From Bacteriovorax sp. MedPE-SWde (lineage in GTDB: Bacteria > Bdellovibrionota > Bacteriovoracia > Bacteriovoracales > Bacteriovoracaceae), in contig MPCU01000002.1 in the NCBI GenBank assembly GCA_001874305.1, positions 186,001-250,000 on the forward strand: DNA of 64,000 bases, read 5' to 3'. The position numbers were made by a program, and so were the translations under genes. The notes beneath the pieces are model-generated. The model was given only the letters and a program-made list of their open reading frames with translations. It did no database searches and had not been told where the DNA came from. Numbering within the stretch: position 1 is the stretch's first letter; the number at the start of each line of letters is the position of its first letter. Below are positions 14,281-64,000 of this stretch, in pieces.

Positions 14281-15393
14281 GTGAAAGCGACTTTATTACT
14301 AATCCATTTTTTAGGAATCTCTCTTTTAGCAAGTTCTTGTGCTGGACCAATGAATCCTTTTGGAAGTGATACAGCAAATATATTCGACAGGGCGAATGAA
14401 GCACCTCTTTGGAAAAGCAAAAGGGTACCTGCAGAGTTTTCAAATGTAGATATTAGCTTTTTTCCTAAGAGACAAAATTGGCACAGCTCACATGACTTCT
14501 ACATTATTCTTCAATCAAAAACAGAGAAACTTACAATCAATAACGTAAAACTCTACTGGAACCATAAAGATATATCTAAGAGTTTATTTTCTGCGAAGGA
14601 AATTGTTTTTGAAAATGAAGAAAGCCTTATCATCAAAGTAAAATCTCTGCGATTAATGGCCAACAGTGAAAATGATATCAATGCTTACTATGTATCGGCA
14701 TTGAATAAGAAAGTCTATGGTCAAGAATACAAAAGACCAAGGTGTGAGTTTAGAGAAGAGATGAAGGTCACACACACAACCCCATTTAAAGTAAAGCCTT
14801 CTTTTATAAAACTTGTTTCTAACGAATCAAAGAATCATAAAATAAACCCTTCTTTAATGACAGCACTTATTGCGCAAGAATCAGGCTTTAATCCAAACTC
14901 GGTAAGTTATGCTAAAGCAATAGGTTTAACACAGGTAACAAACCTGGCCAGTCACCACGTTCTAAAGAAGTTTAGAAGCTGGAAATCAGATAGAAGAATT
15001 AAGAAACTTCCCGCCCCTCTTGTAAGAGCAATGATTAAGCTTGGAAAAATAAATAGAAATCATGACTGGAGATTAGATAAGAGAAAATCTGTTAAAGGTG
15101 GTATCGCCTACCTTGAGTACCTTGATCGCTATTGGAGAGGAAATATAGAGCTAATAGAAAGAGTTTACGGAACTAACTATGATAGAGAGCAAATTTATAC
15201 TGACCTTATTCTTGCCAGCTATAACTCTGGTCCCTACAGAATCAAGATGAGACTCATAAGAGAAGGTAGGAAGTGGTATAAATCAAACTTAATAAAAGAA
15301 GCAAGAAAATATATGGGTAAAATTAAGAGTTATTGTTATCACTTTAACCAAAAGAAAGGAGGGGGTTATGAAAAGCAAGCCTCTAATTTTTAA
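14281..15393 (+). CDS. Lytic transglycosylase lipoprotein (SLT / GH23 fold)
   Basis: 370 residues from a GTG at 14281, chosen because GGGGA lies five bases upstream and it gives a compact lipoprotein signal (MKATLLLIHF...LLASSC). A second GTG at 14251 is in frame and possible. The N-terminal 170 residues are unrecognised. The C-terminal SLT domain shows catalytic Glu200 in IAQESGFNPNSVS, then AKAIGLTQV and ASYNSGP, all typical of GH23 enzymes that cut peptidoglycan to anhydromuropeptides. In a predator it could act on its own wall or on prey wall; the sequence does not decide. The end overlaps the PilZ gene by 26 bases. Confidence 0.88.
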   Translation: MKATLLLIHFLGISLLASSCAGPMNPFGSDTANIFDRANEAPLWKSKRVPAEFSNVDISFFPKRQNWHSSHDFYIILQSKTEKLTINNVKLYWNHKDISKSLFSAKEIVFENEESLIIKVKSLRLMANSENDINAYYVSALNKKVYGQEYKRPRCEFREEMKVTHTTPFKVKPSFIKLVSNESKNHKINPSLMTALIAQESGFNPNSVSYAKAIGLTQVTNLASHHVLKKFRSWKSDRRIKKLPAPLVRAMIKLGKINRNHDWRLDKRKSVKGGIAYLEYLDRYWRGNIELIERVYGTNYDREQIYTDLILASYNSGPYRIKMRLIREGRKWYKSNLIKEARKYMGKIKSYCYHFNQKKGGGYEKQASNF

Positions 15394-16093
15394 CATTTAT
15401 GCATTACTATTTTTGGCGATAGCCATCAGTATTCCATTACAAATCTCTATGATTTATGGACATACGGCCCAAGAGTTAGGCTCGATTTATAACAAGATGA
15501 CCATCTTTAATATTATGGTTATAGGTGTTTCACTTTATAATTTCTATTACTGCTTTACGGCCTCTGATAATGTTAAATGGAGCTTTCCACTGGCCATAGG
15601 TGTGATTAGTTTTAACAACTCTATCGTACTTGTCTACGGTAATGATTTTGAAAGCTATACAGTTATTTTGGCAACACTTCTTTTTATGGTCATGAGCGCA
15701 TACTTTCTTCTGACTCATGACACGGATGTTATTAATCACCCAGATAGTCAATGGTGGAGAATTCCAAGAAGGTTTTCTTTAAAAGAGAGAGTTACACTTC
15801 ATATTGGTGAAAAAGATATTGATATGGGAGATACATTTGATATCTCAACAAGTGGAGCATTTATTCCTTACCAGCTTAATGATGAGCTAAACCTATTTAA
15901 AGGAAATGAAATAATCGACTTTTCAATTGGTGTAGACTCACCTGTTCACTGCCGTGCAAAGATAGTTAGAAAATCTTGTGCGACAGGAGTCTATCCAGAT
16001 GGGATTGGAATCCAATTTGTTGATATGGAACAGACAGATCGAATCAAGCTACAACAAAAACTATTTTCGTCAAGGATGGCCGCTATAATGTAG
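15368..16093 (+). CDS. Membrane-anchored PilZ-domain protein
   Basis: 241 residues. About four hydrophobic helices (10-120) are followed by a cytoplasmic PilZ domain with the cyclic-di-GMP motifs RRFSLKER (about 137-144; an R-x3-R type motif) and DISTSGAF (about 158-165; D-x-S-x-x-G). Such proteins turn c-di-GMP level into a local change of a partner. The ATG follows GGAGGGGG inside the end of the transglycosylase gene, so the two are translationally linked, which suggests c-di-GMP control over cell-wall remodelling. That link is inference. Confidence 0.85.
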   Translation: MKSKPLIFNIYALLFLAIAISIPLQISMIYGHTAQELGSIYNKMTIFNIMVIGVSLYNFYYCFTASDNVKWSFPLAIGVISFNNSIVLVYGNDFESYTVILATLLFMVMSAYFLLTHDTDVINHPDSQWWRIPRRFSLKERVTLHIGEKDIDMGDTFDISTSGAFIPYQLNDELNLFKGNEIIDFSIGVDSPVHCRAKIVRKSCATGVYPDGIGIQFVDMEQTDRIKLQQKLFSSRMAAIM

Positions 16094-18927: not shown

Positions 18928-20499
18928 TTATTCCTTATTTGGTAAGCGAAGAGTAAAGGATGTTGGATTATTTTTAAAGATCATCACCCCACCCCATTCT
19001 TTAACTACTTTATTTACAATACTAAGTCCGAGACCAGAGCCTGAACTCTTATTCCCCTTAGAGAATTCTTCGGTTAATTCTTCAAAAGACATTTCCGTTT
19101 TTCCACCATCAGAAATTTTCACAAAGAGGTTATTCTTCTCTCTCCAAAGATTAAGAGACACTGGAGACTGTCCATGAACAAATGCATTCTCTACAAGATT
19201 TTTTAAAATTATTTGAAACCAGTATACATCTAATGAAAAGCTCTCTACTTTGTTATCAATTGTAACAGTGATATCTTGCTCGTAACGTTCACTAACAGGA
19301 ATAGTGACATCATAGACAAGATCCTCAACTGACTCGACTTTTTCAAATTGAAAGTTAACAAGACCCTTGTTGGCAGCACCTTGAAGATAGTGTTTACTCT
19401 TTTCGGTAAGTCTTTGTAGTCTATAAATCTCGGCAGACATTCTTAAGAAGTCATCTTGAGTTTTTTCATCAAAGGACGATATCTTTCTATTTATATTATC
19501 CATTGTAAGAAGTAGTGAAGCAACAGGCGTTCTAAACTCGTGGGTTAAAACCTGTAAGGCCATCTTCCTTCTCTTATCTTCTAGCTTATCCTGTTTTATT
19601 TTAGAAAAGAGTAACCAAAGAATAAGTGCGAAAATAAATACAACACCACCAAAAGATATAACTGTAGAGAAGTTAATCATCTGAAAGAGATGACGGACAT
19701 TGTATCTCCAACAGATTGGACCATCTTGATAGAGGCAACGCTTCCCTCTATAGTAGCGAGATATTTGATAAGGAGATTTCTCTAAAAACTGCGTAAGGTC
19801 ATCTCTTAAGTAGAATCGATACTCCATAATATCAAAATTCTTAGGATAACTAATTTTTGCAAGGAGGAAGTCCTTTGTGAGGATCGTACCTTCCCTATTA
19901 ATTAAATCAACAAGACTCTTTTCATTAAGGCCTGCGAGTATTCCATAAATTCCACCAAGCGCACCTTGCTCTTTTTGAATCTCATGAATTTCTTTTAAAT
20001 GAAAATATCCCAGGTTATCTCTGATCCACTTCATTGATGGAGTTTTATGTCTTTGGATATCTCTACGGTATAAGAGATAAGCGTAACTGCTTCCCGATGG
20101 ATGCATAAAAGGGGGCTTCTTTACAAACCAAAAAGGAATCTCAAGTCTCTTTCCGCAACGTAATTGATCCCATATGAGATTCTTTGAGAAGTTCTTTAAT
20201 GGTGACTGAACAAGGTTCTTTAAATCACAATCGGATTTACTCGTAATAACGTTATTATCAAAGTGATTGATTGCAATCGACGGATTTAATAACTGCATCT
20301 GCTCTTTGGAGTAATAGAGTGAACTAAAGTTTACGATCGCATAGGGAGTGACATTCTTTTGAAAAGATAGCTTAACTTTTGCAATCTCATAGAGATCTGA
20401 ATTTGATGCAGCTCCAGGCCCCTGGAACTTCAAAATATATCGTCCTGAGTAAAAGGCCAATAGCAAAGCGGTGAATATAAGGACAATATATGGTCTCAT
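18928..20499 (-). CDS. Membrane sensor histidine kinase, partner of the OmpR-type regulator
   Basis: 523 residues: N-terminal membrane helix (about 3-20), a large extracytoplasmic domain of about 250 residues with several cysteines and no recognisable fold, a second membrane helix (about 275-297, VISFGGVVFIFALILWLLF), HisKA with LTHEFRTPVASL (phosphoacceptor His), N-box ILKNLVENAF, and a G-box GSGLGLSIV. The D-box (KISDGG) is short. The stimulus is unknown. No HAMP domain is obvious between the second helix and HisKA. Confidence 0.93.
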   Translation of the reverse strand: MRPYIVLIFTALLLAFYSGRYILKFQGPGAASNSDLYEIAKVKLSFQKNVTPYAIVNFSSLYYSKEQMQLLNPSIAINHFDNNVITSKSDCDLKNLVQSPLKNFSKNLIWDQLRCGKRLEIPFWFVKKPPFMHPSGSSYAYLLYRRDIQRHKTPSMKWIRDNLGYFHLKEIHEIQKEQGALGGIYGILAGLNEKSLVDLINREGTILTKDFLLAKISYPKNFDIMEYRFYLRDDLTQFLEKSPYQISRYYRGKRCLYQDGPICWRYNVRHLFQMINFSTVISFGGVVFIFALILWLLFSKIKQDKLEDKRRKMALQVLTHEFRTPVASLLLTMDNINRKISSFDEKTQDDFLRMSAEIYRLQRLTEKSKHYLQGAANKGLVNFQFEKVESVEDLVYDVTIPVSERYEQDITVTIDNKVESFSLDVYWFQIILKNLVENAFVHGQSPVSLNLWREKNNLFVKISDGGKTEMSFEELTEEFSKGNKSSGSGLGLSIVNKVVKEWGGVMIFKNNPTSFTLRLPNKE

Positions 20500-47695: not shown

Positions 47696-48340
47696 ATGAA
47701 CAAGAATGTTGAAAAACTATTGAAGTCATTTAAAGAGGTAAAAGAACAAGTTGAGTCTGTTGTTCAAACAAATTCACTTAAAGATGTTCAAAAAACTGTT
47801 AAGCATATTGTTAAAAATGCTGAAAAAGAAGTTAAGACTGTTCTCGATAAAGACCTTAAAAAAGTTGTTGGGAAAATCCAAAAAGAAAAAGATGCAGTTG
47901 AAAAGCTAATCGATAAAACTATTCAAGACGAAGTTAAAAAAGCTAAGAAGTTTTTAGATGAGCAGGTAAAAGAGCTTAATAAACTACAAAAAAATCTTGA
48001 AAAGCATGTAAAAGAAGAAATTAAGAAAGCTAAGAAAGTTGCTAAAGTTACAGCTTCAAGAACTAAAGATGCTGCAAAAGCTAAAACAACAACTTCTTCT
48101 ACTAAGAAAAAGGCCGCAACTTCTTCTGCTAAGAAGAAAGCACCTGCGAAGAAGAAAGTAGCAAAGAAAACTGCTAAGAAGAAGGCAACGAAGAAAGTAG
48201 CAACAAAGAAGAAAGCTACGGCCAAGAAAACGACGAAGAAGGCCACAACAGCCAAGAAGACAACTAAGAAAGCAGCACCAAAGAAGAAGGTTGCGTCAAC
48301 TAAGACAGCAGCAAAGAAAGCACCAGCAAAGAAGAAGTAA
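47696..48340 (+). CDS. Histone H1-like Lys/Ala-rich protein with coiled-coil N-terminus
   Basis: 214 residues. Residues 1-115 are a heptad-rich helical region (KEVKEQVESVV, KLIDKTIQDEVKKAKKFLDE). Residues 118-214 are almost only Lys, Ala and Thr in AAKK/TTKK-type repeats like the H1 tail of AlgP/Hc1 proteins, which bind DNA. This order also resembles PHA phasins such as PhaF (phasin plus histone-like tail), so nucleoid compaction or granule segregation are both possible. GAGGAG precedes the ATG, and a terminator follows. Confidence 0.78.
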   Translation: MNKNVEKLLKSFKEVKEQVESVVQTNSLKDVQKTVKHIVKNAEKEVKTVLDKDLKKVVGKIQKEKDAVEKLIDKTIQDEVKKAKKFLDEQVKELNKLQKNLEKHVKEEIKKAKKVAKVTASRTKDAAKAKTTTSSTKKKAATSSAKKKAPAKKKVAKKTAKKKATKKVATKKKATAKKTTKKATTAKKTTKKAAPKKKVASTKTAAKKAPAKKK

Positions 48341-48556: not shown

Positions 48557-48937
48557 ATGAAAAAAATTCTAATTGTAGACGATGAAAAGTCTGTTCAATT
48601 TCTATATGAAAAAGTCTTTAAAAAAGAAGTCAAAGACGGTGAATTTGAGTTAATTTTCTCAATTTCTGGTGAAGACGCTTTAGAAAAGATCAAAAATGAA
48701 GATGAAAACGCTTTTCAGCTAATTATATCTGATATCAATATGCCAGGACTGTCAGGATTTGAACTTCTTAAAGAAGTAAAAGGAATAAGACCAGAGCTCT
48801 CGGTATTTATGTCATCGGCATATACAGATACAGAAAGACAGTCTCTAGCTAAAGAGCTAGGTGCAGATGATTATATTACAAAGCCAGTTGACTTTGTTGC
48901 TCTTAAAGAAAAAATGCTAAGCGTAATAGCTGCTTAG
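48557..48937 (+). CDS. Single-domain response regulator (CheY-like)
   Basis: 126 residues, one receiver domain: D8-D9, phosphoacceptor Asp59 (IISDINMPGLSG), conserved Ser/Thr in VFMSSAYT and Lys109 in ITKPVD. There is no output domain, so it relays phosphate or acts by protein contact. It lies convergent to the Hpt-receiver gene with 16 bases between stops, at the edge of the phosphorelay block. The upstream 216-base intergenic region shows no clear promoter. Confidence 0.93.
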   Translation: MKKILIVDDEKSVQFLYEKVFKKEVKDGEFELIFSISGEDALEKIKNEDENAFQLIISDINMPGLSGFELLKEVKGIRPELSVFMSSAYTDTERQSLAKELGADDYITKPVDFVALKEKMLSVIAA

Positions 48938-48953
48938 CATTTCCAAACTTTAA

Positions 48954-50126
48954 TTACCCCATATTAAATGATCTTTTATTTTGCTTGAATAGACCAATTA
49001 CATCCTTGGCCATTGCTTTTGGTGTAAAAGGCTTTGAAAGTGCTCCAATTATAAACGGAACTTCTGAAAGTAAGTCTGACTTAAGTTTACCTTTGAGACT
49101 AGTGAGAACGATGACTGGAACATCAAAATGAGAGTCCATCTCCTTAATCTTCTTTATGACCTCTACACCACTTTCTTGCTCAAGAATTAAATCAAGAAGT
49201 ACAAGGTCAGGCTTTACAGCCCTATACTTCTCTATAAATTCCTTTCCTGTTGAAGCGGCCTTATATTCAATATTATGCGAAGAAAATGAAATCTTCAGTA
49301 GATCATGAATATTTGTATCATCATCTAAACTTAAAATTTTAATCTTCTTCTCACTTTCGTTCTCAGGTAACTCCGTTAGAAACTTAGTAATACTATTTTC
49401 TATTTCTTTTAAAATATTTTCATTCTTTGAAATGAAGTAATCAGGCATTGATAAAGAAGGAAGTAAATCAAAGTAACTTACACTAAGCATGATAGTACTG
49501 ATTTCCTTGTTAACACCATTTGATACTCTCGTTGCAGCAATAAGAGATGGACCATCAAGCTTTCCAACATGTAAGTCTGTAATTAGAAGATCAAATTTTT
49601 CATTTAGAAGCCTGTTAAAAGCTTCTACTCCCGTTGAGACAATCGAGAAGCTAATTTCTTTCTTATCAAATATAGATTTAAAATGCCCTATTAACTTTTC
49701 ATCATTCTCAACAACTAAGACTCTCTTCTTTTGATCTTTAGTTCTTACAAGACTATCAAGTTCTATGAAGTGACCTTCATCTGATTCTTGATAGTTTTGA
49801 ATAAAGTTTGTTAGTAAATTAAAAATTTTATTAGTTAATCCAACATCAATATAGTCGTCATCACTTAGGTCATAAATATAAGATGTATGGTCAAGAATAT
49901 TTCTACAGGCACTGACTATGAAGTCTACACCATACGATCCAGCAACAGATTTAATATTATGTAATTCTCTTACAAGATTGGAAAGGATCTCTATCTTGGC
50001 CTCTGATTTTTTAAGTCCATGTACTTGACTCAGAGATTTTGAAAGTTCTCCAATTAGCTCTGGAAGCTTAGCTATAAAGTCTGATTTGGCCTTCGCAATT
50101 TCTTGATTTATATTTTCTTCAGTCAT
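48954..50126 (-). CDS. Hpt - receiver - receiver phosphorelay protein
   Basis: 390 residues. N-terminal Hpt domain (1-115) with phosphoacceptor His56 in LVRELHNIKSVAGSYG, then two receivers. Receiver 1 (about 133-250) has a likely Asp in LLITDLHVGKLDG but lacks the usual Lys-Pro. Receiver 2 (about 262-380) has DDDTN, LVLLDLILEQESG and LSKPF and looks complete. Hpt with two receivers in one chain allows several phosphate steps. It is last in the three-gene operon kinase-receiver-this protein. Confidence 0.85.
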   Translation of the reverse strand: MTEENINQEIAKAKSDFIAKLPELIGELSKSLSQVHGLKKSEAKIEILSNLVRELHNIKSVAGSYGVDFIVSACRNILDHTSYIYDLSDDDYIDVGLTNKIFNLLTNFIQNYQESDEGHFIELDSLVRTKDQKKRVLVVENDEKLIGHFKSIFDKKEISFSIVSTGVEAFNRLLNEKFDLLITDLHVGKLDGPSLIAATRVSNGVNKEISTIMLSVSYFDLLPSLSMPDYFISKNENILKEIENSITKFLTELPENESEKKIKILSLDDDTNIHDLLKISFSSHNIEYKAASTGKEFIEKYRAVKPDLVLLDLILEQESGVEVIKKIKEMDSHFDVPVIVLTSLKGKLKSDLLSEVPFIIGALSKPFTPKAMAKDVIGLFKQNKRSFNMG

Positions 50127-50129
50127 AAG

Positions 50130-50483
50130 TTATTCCGCCTCAATAATTCTGATCAGGTCTTTTTTAAGAATTGGTTTCTTTAAGTAATTTTTAAAATCGC
50201 TTTCTTCGATTTTTGAGATCGTATCTTGATCACTAAATCCAGTTAGAGCAAATACATTAGTGTGAATATTATTATCTCGTAACGTCTTTAAAACATCAAA
50301 GCCTGAAAGCTCAGGCATTTGTATATCAAGAAAAATCATATCAAACTTGTTATTTAGAGCTGTCTCTATACCTTTATGAGGAGTATTACAAAGCTCCACT
50401 TCAAGATTATCATTTTTCTTAAAATATATTTTATATAAGTTTAAGTTATCGTCACTGTCATCAATGAAGAGAATTCTTTTCAC
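50130..50483 (-). CDS. Single-domain response regulator
   Basis: 117 residues, one receiver with D8-D9, the phosphoacceptor Asp in MIFLDIQMPELSG (about 53) and the Lys in LKKPILKK. The start is GTG at 50483, overlapping the kinase stop by four bases (GTGA). It has no output domain. It is probably an intermediate carrier or a competing sink in the relay. Confidence 0.9.
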   Translation of the reverse strand: MKRILFIDDSDDNLNLYKIYFKKNDNLEVELCNTPHKGIETALNNKFDMIFLDIQMPELSGFDVLKTLRDNNIHTNVFALTGFSDQDTISKIEESDFKNYLKKPILKKDLIRIIEAE

Positions 50484-51958
50484 GCTTTCACCATATTAAA
50501 TGAGAACTTAACAGTTGTTCCCTTTCCTTCTCTGCTTGTTAATTCAATTTCACCAGAGTGCTTATCTACAATCTCTTTAACAATACTCATTCCAAGGCCA
50601 ACACTCTTTTCACCTTCGAGTCCTTCTCTACCAGCGCCAGATAATTGATCAAAGATATGTTCTTTAAATTTATCAGGAATTCCAATTCCTGTATCTGAAA
50701 TGGACAGTGTTACCTTTCCATCCTTTGATTCCATTAGTCCTCTAATTTGCCCACTCTCTCCAGTGAACTTATAAGAGTTTGTAATAATATTGTTAAATGC
50801 CCTTGTTAGCATTCCTCTATTTCCCATAATAAAAACATCTTCAGGTCCGTAACACTTAAAGGACATTGCAATATGCTTAGTATTGAATGAGCTAATTTTT
50901 CGGATACAATTCTTTAGTATCTCACCTATATTAACTTTTTCTAGTTCAACGTCATTTTTCTTAAGCTGTAATTCACCAAAGTCTAGTAGCTCATTAACCA
51001 TAGAGAGAAGGTCTGTTGCTGAATTATCAATAACTGAAACCTGCTCCTTTATCTCTTTAACATCATCTTCTTCAGTAAGGATATTATTTGAAAGTCCTAA
51101 GATTGTATTTAGCGGTGTTCTTAAATCATGAGAACAGACAGCTATAAACTGATCCTTTAATCTATTAAGCTTTTCTAGCTCATCAACCTGTGCCTTTAAG
51201 ATATCTGATTTAATTCTTATTTCTAAAAGCTGGTTTACTTTAACAAAGAGCTCTTCTTTAATAAGGGGCTTTGCAATATAGTCATTACCACCAACTTTAT
51301 AAAACTCCAGAATTTCAACTTTATCTTGAACAGAACTTATAAATATAATAGGAACATTCTTTAATCCAATTTCATTTCTTATCTTCTTAACGAAAGCTAT
51401 ACCAGTGAGATTCGGCATAATATGATCTGTTAGAATTAAATCAACTTGCGGATTCTCTTTAATATATTCAAACGCAGAAATCCCATCTAGGAAGTGATGA
51501 ACCTTTGCGCCTTTGGATTTAATTACATGTGAAATAAATTTTGCGGAAATTTTATCATCTTCAACTAATATCGTATTTAGTCCCTGCCAAAGAAGATCTG
51601 GCCTTAGGAAAGAATTAATCTTTAAGTGAATTGATTTGATATCAAACTTATCAACAAATTCATCTGCGCCAGAATTAAAAGCATTTAATCTTTCTTCAAA
51701 GTCATCTGAATCACTAACAAAGAGAAGTGGAATATTCTTCTTTCCTCGCTTCTTTTCCCAATCTAAAATACTTTTCATTACATCAATATCATTGGATTTT
51801 GAAAACTCATTATCAATTACAATTAGAGATGATTTTTCTAACAAAGGTATTAACTCATCATCTAAATTGGTCGAAATTAATTCATAATCCCCCTGAAGAA
51901 GTTCACCTTCCAAGGAATTGAAAAAACTTGAATTTTCGCCAATATATAGAACCTTCAT
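50480..51958 (-). CDS. Soluble receiver-receiver-histidine kinase
   Basis: 492 residues from the ATG at 51958, preceded by an AGGCGG ribosome binding site; an upstream frame to 52012 was not used. Receiver 1 (about 1-115) is degenerate (LIVIDNEF replaces the DxxMP loop). Receiver 2 (about 128-245) is complete (LVEDD, LTDHIMPNLTG, AKPL). HisKA has VCSHDLRTPLNTI, then HATPase with NNIITNSYKF and DTGIGIPD. No membrane segment is seen, so the input is either cytoplasmic or by phosphate from another kinase. It begins the operon. Confidence 0.9.
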   Translation of the reverse strand: MKVLYIGENSSFFNSLEGELLQGDYELISTNLDDELIPLLEKSSLIVIDNEFSKSNDIDVMKSILDWEKKRGKKNIPLLFVSDSDDFEERLNAFNSGADEFVDKFDIKSIHLKINSFLRPDLLWQGLNTILVEDDKISAKFISHVIKSKGAKVHHFLDGISAFEYIKENPQVDLILTDHIMPNLTGIAFVKKIRNEIGLKNVPIIFISSVQDKVEILEFYKVGGNDYIAKPLIKEELFVKVNQLLEIRIKSDILKAQVDELEKLNRLKDQFIAVCSHDLRTPLNTILGLSNNILTEEDDVKEIKEQVSVIDNSATDLLSMVNELLDFGELQLKKNDVELEKVNIGEILKNCIRKISSFNTKHIAMSFKCYGPEDVFIMGNRGMLTRAFNNIITNSYKFTGESGQIRGLMESKDGKVTLSISDTGIGIPDKFKEHIFDQLSGAGREGLEGEKSVGLGMSIVKEIVDKHSGEIELTSREGKGTTVKFSFNMVKA

Positions 51959-52035
51959 AATACCGCCTGCAATAAGGCTTATTTTATCACTTTTCGGCCT
52001 GAATTGATTCATAAGGCAAAAAATTAGCGTAAATT

Positions 52036-52062
52036 TAAGGTCTTAGCTAAACCTGTCGATAA
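52036..52062 (+). promoter_or_regulatory. FliA (sigma-28)-like promoter before the receiver-HD gene
   Basis: TAAGGTCT (52036-52043) and GTCGATAA (52055-52062), 11 bases apart, resemble the flagellar consensus TAAAGTTT-N11-GCCGATAA (six and seven of eight matches). It ends 21 bases before the ATG. A similar pair precedes the Hpt gene at 61804. Confidence 0.4.
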
Positions 52063-52083
52063 GTTTTCTTGAAGAGGGCAAAA

Positions 52084-53427
52084 ATGAAGATCTTACTTGT
52101 TGATGATGACACAACAATCCTAGAATTGTTGGCAATAATTCTTGAGAACACATTTTCTCCAGAATTAGTCGAGCGTTGTACTCGGCCAGATCATGCTATT
52201 GAAGCTATTAAAAAGCAAGATTTTGACCTGATTATCTGTGACTATGAGATGCCACCACATGGCCGTGGAGACGAAGTATTTAACTTTGTTATAGACGGAG
52301 ATGTTAAATCAAAATTTGTTCTCTTTAGTAGTGAAGATAAAAAGAACCTGACAATACTAAAAGACGAAAATTTCGTAGCACCTCAGTTCTTCTATCTTTC
52401 AAAGCCATCTAGACCAAAGGACTTTAAAGAGTTTATACGAGAAGTATTAGATGATGCTCCTACAATTACAAGTACATCTGCCTTTAACCCTATTCGTATA
52501 CATAACTTCCTAAGATTCTCAGGAACACAATGTCCTATCTATATAAAGCTATCAACTAATAAATATGTCAAAATTATAAACGCGGGTGCAGAATATGACC
52601 TTGAGTTTATCGATAAATATATAAGCAAAGGCATCAAGCAACTCTATATTGAGAGAAATGATTATGATGATTTCCTTGTGAGGTTTGGGAAAACAAGTTT
52701 CTTAACTTCAAAGGAGACGTCTTCCCAGGATTTTCTAAAAGAGGCACAGAAGTCCCATAGGTATCTCTCAACACTAATGAGTGAAATAGGTATTTCTGAG
52801 TATGTTCTTGATATAGCAAATCAAATCAGCACTGAAGTAATTGAAAAGGCCACTGAAGAAAAGTCCCTAAAGAAATTATTAGCAAAGCTTATTGCTTCAA
52901 AAGACTATGCCTATGATCATACTTATCTCATAACATGTATTTGTTCTCACTTATGTAAAGAGCTAGGTCTAAGTAATAGTGTTCTCGAAAGACTTTCATT
53001 TGCGTCTCTAGTTCATGATATTGGAATTACAGATTCTCACTCGTGTTACATACACGATATAGAACCTAAGAATATCTCAAATCAAGACAAAGAAAAGCTC
53101 GATATGATTCAAGACCATCACTTTATCCTCGAAGAGTATAAGAATCTTCCAGATATAACAGACGATTTAACAAATATAATGAATCACCATCACCTCTTTG
53201 AAGAGAGCTACCCTTTCAATCAAAAACTTCAACTCGAAAGGGTTAATAACGTTGTGGCGATATTTCTCGTGGCACACTGTTTTGCTAATCAGCTTTATAC
53301 TTATGAATTTGACTCTTCAAAACTCAGAGATGCTCTGACAGTTGTAAAGCACAACTTCTCTACACCCAACTTTGCAAAAATATTAAGGGCGCTTGAGATC
53401 GTATATATTAAGAATCAGCCTAAGTAA
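52084..53427 (+). CDS. Receiver - unknown - degenerate HD-GYP response regulator
   Basis: 447 residues from the ATG at 52084, with AGAGGG five bases before it; a TTG five codons upstream is less likely. Receiver 1 (about 1-120) has DDDTT and IICDYEMPPHG. The middle (about 145-200) has IYIKLSTNKYVKIINAGAEYD followed by LYIERNDYDDF. The HD domain has VHDIGI, EDHHF-like DHHFILEE and NHHHLFEESYPF; Tyr-Pro remains but the family Gly is lost. Domain order equals that of the 5360-6721 protein. It heads a run of relay genes. Confidence 0.78.
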   Translation: MKILLVDDDTTILELLAIILENTFSPELVERCTRPDHAIEAIKKQDFDLIICDYEMPPHGRGDEVFNFVIDGDVKSKFVLFSSEDKKNLTILKDENFVAPQFFYLSKPSRPKDFKEFIREVLDDAPTITSTSAFNPIRIHNFLRFSGTQCPIYIKLSTNKYVKIINAGAEYDLEFIDKYISKGIKQLYIERNDYDDFLVRFGKTSFLTSKETSSQDFLKEAQKSHRYLSTLMSEIGISEYVLDIANQISTEVIEKATEEKSLKKLLAKLIASKDYAYDHTYLITCICSHLCKELGLSNSVLERLSFASLVHDIGITDSHSCYIHDIEPKNISNQDKEKLDMIQDHHFILEEYKNLPDITDDLTNIMNHHHLFEESYPFNQKLQLERVNNVVAIFLVAHCFANQLYTYEFDSSKLRDALTVVKHNFSTPNFAKILRALEIVYIKNQPK

Positions 53428-53513
53428 CCGATATCTCGAACTAATTAGTTCATGAACTTGTTTGGAATGGGTTATAATAAATAAGATTTAAATTTGAATA
53501 CTGGAGTAAAACT

Positions 53514-53807
53514 ATGGCAAAAGTTGAAGTCGATGAGGAACTAAAGGATATACTTCCAAGTTTTCTAGAAAACAGAAACAAAGATATTCTCACACTCAAA
53601 GAGGCACTCGCCAATAATGATAATTCAACATTAGAAAAAGTTGGGCACAAAGTATCAGGAAGTGCCGGCGGCTATGGTTTTGAAGACCTCGGAGTAATAG
53701 CAAAGGATATTGAACTGGCATCAAAGGCCGGTGAAATGGACAAGGTAAAATCACTAATAGATTCCTTTGAAATTTATGTAAACGAAATTGAAGTAGTCTT
53801 TGTATAG
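53514..53807 (+). CDS. Hpt domain phosphotransfer protein
   Basis: 97 residues, a single Hpt domain with phosphoacceptor His45 in EKVGHKVSGSAGGYGF. The family pattern is H-x-x-K-G-x-[AS]; here KVSG fits. It starts after GGAG and sits between a receiver-HD and two receiver genes, so it is the likely shuttle for this cluster. No kinase motif is present. Confidence 0.85.
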   Translation: MAKVEVDEELKDILPSFLENRNKDILTLKEALANNDNSTLEKVGHKVSGSAGGYGFEDLGVIAKDIELASKAGEMDKVKSLIDSFEIYVNEIEVVFV

Positions 53808-53819
53808 ACTTAGGTAGAA

Positions 53820-54503
53820 ATGGCCAAGAAGAATAAAGTTATACTAATAATTGATGATGATCCCGATATGAGATCTTACCTCAGGAAACTTCTTGAGGGA
53901 ATGGGCCATGAAGTTCACGAAGCAGGAAACTCAAGAACTGGTATTAAAATTATCGATGAAGTAACCCCTCACCTCATTCTCCTAGATATTAATCTTGATG
54001 ATGAAAGTGGTTTCAACGTAATTGGAAAAATTCGCCAACTCGATCCATTTCAGAGAATGAAAATTCTTATGATTAGTTCTCTTTCAAGTAAGAAGGCAAT
54101 TGATCTGTCTAAGAAACTTGGAACTGATGGATTTCTTATTAAGCCTATTAATAATCAGACTCTATCAACTACGATGAAAAAGATGCTACCGGAATTGAAC
54201 TTTCCAGTAGCAAAGAATATAGATAAAGAGTTCTCTAACCTTATGGGTAAGTTTCATGGACAAATTGTCAAAATTAGTGAGACTTCGGTTATCTTACAAT
54301 CTAAAGTCAAATTCTTTGAAAAGAGAAAGTTACAGATTGATAGCATCTTCTTAAATAGAAATGACCTTAATAAGACTCAGCTAATTATCCAAGAAGCTAG
54401 TAAAGACGTTAGTACAGGAACTTATAACACAAAGATTCAACTGATTGGTCTGACAGATAATAACCTAAAACAAATCAGAAAGCTCAACACCAAAAAGGCA
54501 TAG
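53820..54503 (+). CDS. Receiver with unassigned C-terminal domain
   Basis: 227 residues. Receiver (1-120) with D13-D14-D15, phosphoacceptor Asp in LILLDINLDDESG and Lys in LIKPIN. The C-terminal 100 residues show a beta-rich pattern (FHGQIVKISETSVILQSKV, KLQIDSIFLN) reminiscent of PilZ-type barrels, but the PilZ arginine and D-x-S-x-x-G motifs are not present. Function is unknown; probably an output module. It is 12 bases after the Hpt gene. Confidence 0.75.
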   Translation: MAKKNKVILIIDDDPDMRSYLRKLLEGMGHEVHEAGNSRTGIKIIDEVTPHLILLDINLDDESGFNVIGKIRQLDPFQRMKILMISSLSSKKAIDLSKKLGTDGFLIKPINNQTLSTTMKKMLPELNFPVAKNIDKEFSNLMGKFHGQIVKISETSVILQSKVKFFEKRKLQIDSIFLNRNDLNKTQLIIQEASKDVSTGTYNTKIQLIGLTDNNLKQIRKLNTKKA

Positions 54504-54505
54504 AC

Positions 54506-55195
54506 TTGAAAGATAAGAGAATACTTACCATTGACGATGATGAGGATATCAACCAACTCGTAAAGATAATTCTTAATAAGAATGGTTATGAAGTTGAGAC
54601 CGCATGTGAAATCGAAGACTTCTTTAGAAAGGTCGTTGAATTTAAGCCCCACCTCTGCATAGTTGACCTCAATCTTGGTGACCATGAGGGATTTGGATAC
54701 AATATTATTGAGTTGATGCGTAAAAAAATTGGCAAAGAGATTATCATAATAATCATGTCCAGACGTAATTCAGCTGAAGATATCACAAGAGCACTCGAGT
54801 GTGGTGCTAACGACTATATTCAAAAGCCAATCGACGAACAGATAATCATTTCAAAGCTAGATGTCTTCCTAGGAAACGAAGAATCAACACTGAATCTACC
54901 TTTCTACGCAGTTGCGACGGGGGACAGAGAATGTTACTTCCAATTTCCATTAAACATCTATTCAATGACTGAAGAAACTATTACAATTTATAGTAATAAC
55001 TATATTGCTAAGGGAAGTCTTATAGAACTAAATAATAGTTTCTTAGACTCTAGAAGTTTTACAGTCAGTAATGTGATTCTTGATCGTGAAAAAGGTGGAT
55101 ATTTTATTGAAGTCAGCATTGACGCAATAGACCATGAAGACCTCTTGCCTACAGTCAGAAAAATAATGATGAAGAGCTCCCCCATAGCAGAATAA
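54506..55195 (+). CDS. Receiver with unassigned C-terminal domain (second)
   Basis: 229 residues. Start is TTG at 54506, two bases after the previous stop and about eight bases after AAGG. Receiver domain with TIDDDED, phosphoacceptor in LCIVDLNLGDHEGFG and Lys in IQKPID. The C-terminal 100 residues (FPLNIYSMTEETITIYSNNY, KGSLIELNN) are beta-rich and look related in layout to those of the preceding receiver protein. No DNA-binding or enzymatic motif is visible. It is followed 21 bases later by an APC permease. Confidence 0.75.
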   Translation: MKDKRILTIDDDEDINQLVKIILNKNGYEVETACEIEDFFRKVVEFKPHLCIVDLNLGDHEGFGYNIIELMRKKIGKEIIIIIMSRRNSAEDITRALECGANDYIQKPIDEQIIISKLDVFLGNEESTLNLPFYAVATGDRECYFQFPLNIYSMTEETITIYSNNYIAKGSLIELNNSFLDSRSFTVSNVILDREKGGYFIEVSIDAIDHEDLLPTVRKIMMKSSPIAE

Positions 55196-61803: not shown

Positions 61804-62610
61804 ATGGAAGAACTTGAATTTGAATTGAAGCAGGCAACTCTAAACGAACTAGAAGATCATCTCGGTGAACTAGGAGAAATCCTAAATAATCAGAGCTATT
61901 CAGACTTAAATCAAGATGATTTCGAAAAGATATTTAGAATTGTTCATTCGATCAAAGGAAATACTAGAGCTTCAGGGTTTAGTGAAATTGCAGAAGTCTC
62001 CCATCTCTATGAATCAAAAATGATTGGCGTAAAGGCCGGCGACACTGATTACTCCAAACCGCTTCATGAAATGAGCTTAATGTTTCTCGATAAACTTGGG
62101 GACTCGCTAGAGGTTTTAAAAACAGATATGGATGCTGCACTCGATCTGAATGGACTGCTCACGCATATTGAGAATCTCGATAACCTAACAGAAGAGAAAA
62201 AGAGTACCAAAACAGATGATGAGATGTCATTTATGATCGTAGACGATGATTATGATGTTCAAGAAATTGTAAAATCATATATATCAGATGCTATTCCATC
62301 AAAGTTTCAATTAGAGATGAACGGAAAGGATGCCCTAGAAAAGACAGCAGGCCATAAATTTGACGTTATCATTTGTGACTATAAAATGCCTGTACTTGAT
62401 GGAAAGAAGTTTATTGAACAATTAAGATCAACACAAGGTCCAAATCAATATACACCGATAATTTTTCTAAGTGGATATAAGCCTAACTTAGAGGCCAATG
62501 CAAATACATGGGAGAATGTATTCTTCATCGAAAAGCCATTTACAGATCATAAGCTTATTTATTATGTGAAATGTTCAATAGAACTTCTGAAGAACTTAGA
62601 AGCGGCTTAG
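61804..62610 (+). CDS. Hpt - receiver protein
   Basis: 268 residues. N-terminal Hpt domain (about 1-110) with His48 in RIVHSIKGNTRASGF, then a receiver (about 142-262) with DDDYD, phosphoacceptor in VIICDYKMPVLDG and Lys in IEKPF. A GAGGG ribosome binding site precedes the ATG. It is convergent with the hybrid kinase, one base apart, and is probably its phosphotransfer partner. Confidence 0.87.
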   Translation: MEELEFELKQATLNELEDHLGELGEILNNQSYSDLNQDDFEKIFRIVHSIKGNTRASGFSEIAEVSHLYESKMIGVKAGDTDYSKPLHEMSLMFLDKLGDSLEVLKTDMDAALDLNGLLTHIENLDNLTEEKKSTKTDDEMSFMIVDDDYDVQEIVKSYISDAIPSKFQLEMNGKDALEKTAGHKFDVIICDYKMPVLDGKKFIEQLRSTQGPNQYTPIIFLSGYKPNLEANANTWENVFFIEKPFTDHKLIYYVKCSIELLKNLEAA

Positions 62611-62611
62611 T

Positions 62612-64000
62612 TTAAGCCTCTTCTATTTTTTTAATCACTCTTACAATATCAATTCTCTTAACCGGTTTAGATAAATACTCATTCATACCGGCCTCAAAAC
62701 AACTCTTCTTATCATCTTCAAATGCATTTGCTGTAAGTGCAATAATTTGACAAGGTGATAGTTCTTTACTCTTTTCATATAAGCGAATTTCTTTAGTTGC
62801 TGTTAGTCCATCCATTACAGGCATCTGCATATCCATAAGAATATATTCAGGTCGATATTCCTTAAAATACTCAACAGCGGCCTTACCATTTTCAACAACT
62901 TCAAAGTCTAAAGCTAGCTTGCCAAGAATTTTAGAGACAACTTTTTGGTTTATCTTATTATCTTCCGCAACCAGTATCGATATCTTTCTATCAAGTAATA
63001 GTTCTTCATTCTTTAACACTTCTTTAAGATCACTTTCTTTTATAAAGCTAAGCGCCTTAATTGTAATATCGAAACTTGTTCCTTTACCGACTTCACTTTT
63101 AACTTGTATAGTACCATTCATGAGCTCTACGAGAGACTTAGTTATCGAGAGACCAAGACCTGTTCCTCCATACTTCCTTGTTATTGATGCATCAGCTTGC
63201 TGAAAAGGTCTAAAGATATTCTTTAACTGATCCTTATTCATCCCAATTCCTGTATCCTTGACAGAGATATTGAGATAGTTGTCTTCAACCTTAATCTCAA
63301 GAGTAACAACTCCCCCTTCTGTAAACTTGATAGCATTGCTTAAGAGGTTATTAAGAATTTGCTTTATTCTAAATTCATCAGAATTAAGATAGGTATCATT
63401 ATGAATATTGTTAACTACGATCAGGTTAGAGTTTTTCTCTTTTGCCTTCACATTAAATGTTAATACTGTTTCATCAAGAATCCTCTTTAATGAGAAGTCT
63501 CTATTTTCTATTTGTATCTTATTAGCTTCTATCTTTGAAAAGTCTAGAATTTCATTAATAAGATAGAGCAGAGTTTCTCCACTACTTTCAAGAAGCTCTA
63601 CTAATTCGCTCTGTTCCTTATCGAGAGAGCTTTGTTTTAAAAGATCTGTCATTCCTAGAACACCATTAATAGGAGTTCTTATTTCATGTGACATATTAGC
63701 TAGGAATGCTGTTTTGAGCTCAGCGGCCTTTCTAATATCATCAATGGCCTTCTTACTAATACTTTCGGCCTTCTTTATTACCGTAATATCATCTATAATT
63801 GCAAAGAAACCTTTAAGGTCATTCTCTTCATTAAAAATTGCCGACATACTTAATGTAATAGGAAGATCAGAGAGGTCTTTTTTAAGGAGTGTCCACTCTC
63901 TATCTTCGACATCACCCTTTCTTGCATTAAATGCAAGAACTTCAAAACCTGCATCAAAGTAAAGTTCATGTATCTTTCCTAACTCACTTGCCCTATCTTC
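62612..64000 (-). CDS. PAS-containing hybrid histidine kinase with C-terminal receiver, 5' end beyond window
   Basis: The ATG at 63847 is internal: the frame stays open to the right edge and the residues upstream (EWTLLKKDLSDLPITLS...) continue a PAS domain, so 462 residues are visible and the N-terminus is missing. HisKA has ANMSHEIRTPINGVLG, HATPase has NLLSNAIKFT, DTGIGM and GTGLGLSI. The C-terminal receiver has VAEDNKIN, ILMDMQMPVMDG and LSKPV. It is a typical multistep-relay kinase; phosphate would pass from His to receiver and then to an Hpt protein such as the one at 61804. Confidence 0.93.
   Translation of the reverse strand, partial: EDRASELGKIHELYFDAGFEVLAFNARKGDVEDREWTLLKKDLSDLPITLSMSAIFNEENDLKGFFAIIDDITVIKKAESISKKAIDDIRKAAELKTAFLANMSHEIRTPINGVLGMTDLLKQSSLDKEQSELVELLESSGETLLYLINEILDFSKIEANKIQIENRDFSLKRILDETVLTFNVKAKEKNSNLIVVNNIHNDTYLNSDEFRIKQILNNLLSNAIKFTEGGVVTLEIKVEDNYLNISVKDTGIGMNKDQLKNIFRPFQQADASITRKYGGTGLGLSITKSLVELMNGTIQVKSEVGKGTSFDITIKALSFIKESDLKEVLKNEELLLDRKISILVAEDNKINQKVVSKILGKLALDFEVVENGKAAVEYFKEYRPEYILMDMQMPVMDGLTATKEIRLYEKSKELSPCQIIALTANAFEDDKKSCFEAGMNEYLSKPVKRIDIVRVIKKIEEA

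Follow-up and report, generated by a model that had tools for sequence, protein, structure and literature searches.

The window analyzed here is a 64,000-nucleotide stretch of contig MPCU01000002.1 of Bacteriovorax sp. MedPE-SWde, and its positions 48,557–55,195 hold a 6.6-kb block of eight genes that together encode nine receivers (REC), two histidine phosphotransfer (Hpt) domains, and one histidine kinase (Table 1; Pfam and the list of open reading frames, or ORFs). An initial annotation had described a packed His–Asp relay block of eight genes with tight spacing and short overlaps. All eight frames are borne out by the ORF list, with domains assigned by Pfam, and both the domain content and the conserved gene order give good support to a His–Asp relay. 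Packing is indeed tight. Genes within a unit lie 3, 12, and 2 bases apart, REC2 and the kinase gene share 4 bases (50480–50483, the sole overlap), 86 bases precede the stand-alone Hpt gene, and the convergent genes are separated by 16 bases. By direction, the units are REC1 (+), kinase–REC2–Hpt-REC-REC (−), and REC-HD–Hpt–RX1–RX2 (+), which implies at least three transcription units. We use the names RX1 and RX2 for the two proteins in which a receiver is followed by a further C-terminal domain. The block is a real, conserved module and probably a multistep phosphorelay with a five-gene core.

Table 1. Genes of the block, with positions in the window
Gene	Position	Strand	Features
REC1	48557..48937	+	Stand-alone receiver, canonical residues; 8/11 related loci
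Hpt-REC-REC	48954..50126	−	Accessory; Hpt with ELHNIKSVAGSYG; 5/11 related loci
REC2	50130..50483	−	Stand-alone receiver, canonical; 11/11 related loci
REC-REC-HisKA-HATPase kinase	50480..51958	−	First receiver degenerate, second canonical; 11/11 related loci
REC-HD	52069..53427	+	Receiver plus Bd1817-like region with degenerate HD-GYP; accessory; 6/11 related loci
Stand-alone Hpt	53514..53807	+	Motif GHKVSGSAGGYGF; His invariant in 24 aligned sequences
RX1	53820..54503	+	Receiver plus PilZ-like C-terminal domain (about 54195–54503) without c-di-GMP motifs
RX2	54506..55195	+	Receiver plus PilZ-like C-terminal domain (about 54878–55195) without c-di-GMP motifs

A conserved core with accessory genes

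The 3.76-Mb genome contains 105 receiver hits and 14 Hpt hits. Eight of these receiver hits start inside the block, the ninth receiver (the kinase's first) not being among the 105 listed. No other place in the genome is as dense in receivers, the runner-up having five. Five was also the maximum per 6.6 kb over 2,000 random uniform placements of the receivers, a lenient control since receivers within one protein are not independent. An artefact or a chance cluster was rejected on this density relative to random placement and on the related loci.

The nearest named loci belong to Bacteriovorax sp. DB6_IX, Halobacteriovorax, and Bacteriovoracaceae metagenome-assembled genomes; these relatives are marine predatory Bdellovibrionota. 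Eleven related loci (L039–L049) were found through RX1, which is therefore present by construction. In this synteny search, a check that the initial annotation had proposed, the kinase, REC2, Hpt, and RX2 accompanied RX1 in all 11. Moreover, the kinase and the Hpt-RX1-RX2 cassette are divergent neighbors in every one of them, with REC-HD between the two in 6. Thus, the block consists of a five-gene core (kinase, REC2, Hpt, RX1, and RX2) and of accessory genes. Most of the 11 loci are flanked by TrmFO, NadE, and a histone-like gene at one end and by an amino acid permease at the opposite end. In the window, the Lys/Ala-rich protein at 47696–48340 (+), which also adjoins NadE in related genomes, is presumably histone-H1-like. 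Extra receiver genes lie between RX2 and the permease in L045 (4476–5675) and at the same place in L046–L048; the L045 gene, the only one of these scanned with Pfam, encodes a receiver with ankyrin repeats.

The C-terminal domains of RX1 and RX2

The initial annotation had called the two C-terminal domains similar in layout and unassigned. The similarity holds, as hhalign shows the two to be homologous (probability 97.1, E 5.5e-11); the lack of an assignment does not, as they are PilZ-like. A match of the domains to a known family had been held to count against the annotation, and such matches were found in part, in these C-domains and also in REC-HD, which matches Bd1817.

The evidence for this relationship comes from profile comparisons, from a distant family member, and from a structure model. 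Removal of identical sequences reduced the RX1 set from 51 to 34 and the RX2 set from 48 to 32; the former holds two paralogues from the window's own genome (L059 and L061) and the latter one (L059). The comparison set of 26 PilZ domains, from 26 of 30 loci, was drawn from the window's genome, four genomes of the same genus, and two of the same phylum. A joint profile of the RX C-domains scored 28.0 against it, collinear over PilZ positions 21–101 of 102, and the single RX2 and RX1 profiles scored 24.2 and 18.5. Controls (unrelated profiles, a reversed profile, and 20 shuffles) reached at most 14.4, and a receiver–receiver positive control reached 200.9. The distant family member L161:6611-7321 passes the Pfam PilZ cut-off outright (25.1 vs 22.5), and L163 and L162 have PilZ matches below the cut-off in a similar register. 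The AlphaFold2 model of full-length RX2 (mean pLDDT 86.6, pTM 0.53) places beta strands within residues 150–204 of the C-domain and a C-terminal helix at 211–223. Because the profile scores exceed the controls, L161 passes Pfam, and the RX2 model has these strands and this helix, the C-domains are most likely divergent PilZ domains.

Several observations weigh against this assignment. The hhalign probability of a PilZ match is low: the joint profile reaches 58%, RX2 28%, and RX1 5%. Neither RX1 nor RX2 of the window matches Pfam PilZ (PF07238), and Pfam finds no PilZ in any of 26 whole RX1 proteins. Matches of the full RX2 model in Foldseek and VIA-align offer no help either way; receiver-containing chains fill the matches listed, so the absence of PilZ chains among them is uninformative. 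Among 26 whole RX2 proteins PilZ was matched once, with E 0.17, and Response_reg is the only Pfam family that matches every RX1 and every RX2 protein (26 of each). With the 32 RX2 C-domains taken alone, PilZ is the only family to match more than one, weakly and in three members (best E 0.028). A PDB sequence-profile search with the C-domains alone returned few, weak, and unrelated matches.

The C-domains of RX1 and RX2 have lost the motifs for binding cyclic di-GMP (c-di-GMP). Of 34 RX1 and 32 RX2 domains, one RX1 and no RX2 has RxxxR, compared with 21 of 26 PilZ controls. [DN]xSxxG is present in two of the RX1 domains, though at another place in the domain, and in none of the RX2 domains, compared with 24 of 26 controls. 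By this motif test, RX1 and RX2 fall outside the class of c-di-GMP-binding PilZ receptors. It is useful to contrast them with PixA of Myxococcus xanthus, which likewise joins a receiver and a PilZ-type domain in one protein. As far as the available part of its description goes (PMC8316039), the PilZ domain of PixA comes first, its c-di-GMP motifs are intact, and the protein binds c-di-GMP. In RX1 and RX2, by comparison, the PilZ-like domain is last, both motifs are absent, and the two proteins form a tandem pair with an Hpt. If our reading is true, c-di-GMP is not needed for PilZ to serve as an output of phosphorylation.

The fold proposed here concerns an output domain that recurs in the phylum. 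A profile search of 240 genomes of the phylum gave hits for the RX1-type C-domain in 104 and for the RX2-type in 76, the weak hits possibly including other PilZ-like domains. Of 39 RX2-type places with E ≤ 1e-14, 38 adjoin an RX1-type place, with RX1 always upstream, although many of these paired loci were used in building both profiles. The lone RX2-type place without an RX1 neighbor is on contig C238 of genome G206. The window's own genome has a second tandem RX1-RX2-like pair (L059:9938-11321, contig C13), and a BLAST scan found no matching Hpt beside it. Elsewhere in the window lie a PilZ-domain protein above the Pfam cut-off (15368–16093, +) and a histidine kinase that matches DUF3404 (18928–20499, −).

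Phosphorylation residues and the REC-HD protein

In the alignment, by eye, seven of the nine receivers have the canonical acidic pair, Asp, Ser/Thr, and Lys. The initial annotation had flagged one receiver of the kinase as degenerate; its first receiver is one of the two others and is without a full acidic pair in 12 of 12 aligned kinases, the window's included. The same annotation had reported a missing Lys in Hpt-REC-REC, and this was not confirmed. The aligned Lys is present in both receivers (FISK and LSK), and what deviates instead is the first receiver's acidic pair, which is degenerate, and the Pro after its Lys, which is absent; the second receiver is canonical. The first-receiver Lys is kept in the window and in four of the five related loci with this gene. 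It is lost in L043, as are the Hpt His and the first-receiver Asp. The three possible shuttles once proposed come down to two Hpt domains in Pfam, and the one in Hpt-REC-REC, which scores 0.1 bit below its cut-off, belongs to an accessory protein that has lost the Hpt His in one locus. The stand-alone Hpt is above the cut-off, and its invariant His is His45. In NCBIfam it is weakly similar to the ArcB, TorS, LuxU, and LetS models, and no model exceeds its cut-off among the matches listed (at most 25 per protein).

The kinase has HisKA and HATPase_c domains, both above the Pfam cut-off, together with two N-terminal receivers and none at the C terminus; Pfam recognizes no input domain besides these receivers. 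Its ORF reaches 52012, and most aligned relatives start at the Met at 51958. Known multistep phosphorelays (ArcB, TorS, BarA, and LuxU-type Hpt proteins) resemble the block in combining a HisKA kinase, receivers, an Hpt, and response regulators. Unlike in those systems, the kinase here is without a recognized sensor or a C-terminal receiver and carries two N-terminal receivers, one of them degenerate, and the outputs stand in tandem without a DNA-binding domain. A literature search, limited to open-access papers, found none on a phosphorelay in Bacteriovorax.

REC-HD is, by its profile and by the match of its predicted fold, a Bd1817-like unconventional HD-GYP protein. Its profile matches Bd1817 of Bdellovibrio bacteriovorus (PDB 3tm8, 3tmb, 3tmc, and 3tmd) over positions 135–407 with E 7.7e-9, and its model (mean pLDDT 83.0) matches Bd1817 in Foldseek across 325 columns (E 1.8e-7, 14% identity, rmsd 6.6). 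Indeed, Bd1817 outranks receivers among the Foldseek matches of this model. The Pfam HD score lies 1.4 bits below its cut-off, and several relatives suggest a start at ATG 52084. In REC-HD, unlike in Bd1817, this region is preceded by a receiver whose phosphorylation residues are canonical. REC-HD also keeps the Tyr of the degenerate GYP (as SYP), which Bd1817 lacks as far as the available part of PMC4159591 describes it.

The region keeps H316, D317, H350, H374, and H375, and HHExxDGxGYP has become HHLFEESYP, in which Tyr-Pro stays and the loop is two residues shorter. The last metal-ligand Asp is replaced by His403, and Ile320 stands three residues past the HD Asp, where none of 18 sequences has a Lys; this position corresponds to K225 of PmGH by spacing only. 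In the available part of PMC4159591, K225 of PmGH is as important as the metal ligands, alanine changes in the GYP motif hardly lower PmGH activity, and Bd1817 is described as catalytically inactive. REC-HD is a receiver joined to an HD-GYP domain that is probably inactive, because the Lys position and the last ligand Asp are replaced and not because of its GYP. For these two replacements, a normal active phosphodiesterase was rejected.

Phosphate flow and competing explanations

The explanation that we favor, with moderate confidence in the whole, is a predicted phosphorelay that runs from the kinase through an Asp and the Hpt to RX1 and RX2, with c-di-GMP-free PilZ-like outputs and accessory branches. 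The core would comprise a kinase without a recognized sensor, regulated by its own N-terminal receivers, together with REC2, Hpt, and the RX1-RX2 pair. The kinase would autophosphorylate and pass phosphate to an intermediate Asp, either in its own second receiver or in REC2. From there it would move to the Hpt His and finally to an Asp in each of RX1 and RX2, whose divergent PilZ barrels, lacking a c-di-GMP site, would probably act by protein contact. Output would be post-translational, plausibly on motility, polarity, or a predatory switch, and REC1, Hpt-REC-REC, and REC-HD would supply accessory inputs or branches. We infer the direction of phosphate flow, the role of RX1 and RX2 as end points, and the physiological output. 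This reading reduces the eight-gene block to a testable five-gene core. For predatory bacteria, it offers a candidate relay with a post-translational output, run by a kinase that lacks a classical sensor.

The wiring of relatives bears on this route. The order of the cassette was read in 30 of the 46 loci found, several of them in the same genomes as the 11 related loci. Hpt-RX1-RX2 is the order in 19 (with a split RX2 frame in L084) and RX1-RX2-REC-Hpt in 2, and 9 have neither (L083 stops just past Hpt). In six loci of another family in the same phylum, five of them from one genus (L146–L150 and L158), a single homologous receiver–C-domain gene lies directly downstream of a kinase-size ORF of 831–841 aa with a receiver. 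The ORF of L147, the only one of the six scanned for domains, reads PAS-HisKA-HATPase-REC-Hpt, with CHASE3 just below the cut-off; there, one fused kinase and one RX take the place of the split kinase, REC2, Hpt, and two RX proteins of the block. L154 has a CHASE3-GAF hybrid kinase and, behind it, an Hpt-like ORF (21 bits with the Hpt profile built here), RX1, and RX2. L155 encodes a kinase of 1145 aa that carries two receivers and a weak C-terminal Hpt (17.8 vs the Pfam cut-off of 24.6, and 59 bits with our Hpt profile), followed by RX1 and RX2, and L053 has a GAF/PAS hybrid kinase upstream of RX1. Because several distant relatives have RX genes behind a hybrid kinase that is sometimes fused to an Hpt, kinase to Asp to Hpt to RX1/RX2 is the likely route; on balance, these fusions and operons support a flow from kinase to Hpt to RX.

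Several points count against this route. In L161–L163 a single RX gene adjoins a small receiver ORF with no large receiver-bearing ORF, although the profiles run at these loci did not look for kinase domains. Which Asp feeds the Hpt is a guess, the kinase having no C-terminal receiver, and direct transfer from the kinase to RX1 and RX2 is possible. Finally, the module is dispensable because G012, a 99% complete genome from the window's genus, retains only a weak Hpt-like gene at the locus. There, the same flanks (NadE and the histone-like gene, and the permease) enclose just an 89-aa ORF (L167:7669-7938) that keeps the His, has lost much of the Hpt motif, and is not matched by Pfam Hpt at E 0.05; neither RX C-domain profile finds any match in the whole genome.

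A different reading of the same layout is that two or three adjacent pathways work independently of each other, with Hpt-RX1-RX2 loaded by a hybrid kinase elsewhere and the kinase and REC2 forming a separate system that shares only the intergenic region. The cassette does occur without this kinase in other genera, the gene directions imply several transcription units, and the genome's many receiver hits also favor such a separation. We nevertheless consider it rather unlikely, given that kinase and cassette remain divergent neighbors in all 11 related loci, at times across REC-HD, and that hybrid kinases stand right upstream of RX genes in several distant relatives.

The remaining alternatives concern the outputs. 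Phosphate-sink receivers have been described for chemotaxis, and several receivers here compete for two Hpt domains, so RX1 or RX2 might drain the Hpt without signaling. A pure sink would have no need of a C-domain, however, and both RX proteins keep theirs with its Glu (34/34 RX1 and 30/32 RX2), which makes this role improbable. Lower still is the likelihood that we give to a c-di-GMP module in which RX1 and RX2 are PilZ receptors and REC-HD a c-di-GMP phosphodiesterase, both gated by phosphorylation. The PilZ-like profile, the HD-GYP relationship, the retained HD residues and Tyr-Pro, and the tolerance of PmGH to GYP changes speak for it. Against it stand the loss of both binding motifs, His403 and Ile320 in REC-HD, the weight of K225 in PmGH, and the description of Bd1817 as inactive. 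A transcriptional output of the window's block was rejected, since Pfam finds no DNA-binding domain in its eight proteins. A DNA-binding response regulator of the OmpR type is encoded divergently from Hpt in other genera (L052:8242-8943 and L164:8936-9625), so a transcriptional branch may exist in some forms of the module.

Returning to the predicted phosphorelay, we would tentatively extend it to the phylum, as a conjecture somewhat short of even odds. Across Bdellovibrionota, a PilZ barrel minus its c-di-GMP site may have become a phosphorylation-gated output, in many lineages as a near-obligate RX1-RX2 tandem next to an Hpt of its own. The local kinase has no sensor domain in the window's lineage, so the module would integrate phosphate from other kinases and would not itself sense a ligand.

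A second relay possibly lies 6.6 kb from the block. At 61804–62610 (+) the window encodes an Hpt-REC protein, and convergent to it runs a long frame that contains a receiver at about 62633–62977 (−), the hit listed for the genome as G000:C8:248633-248977.

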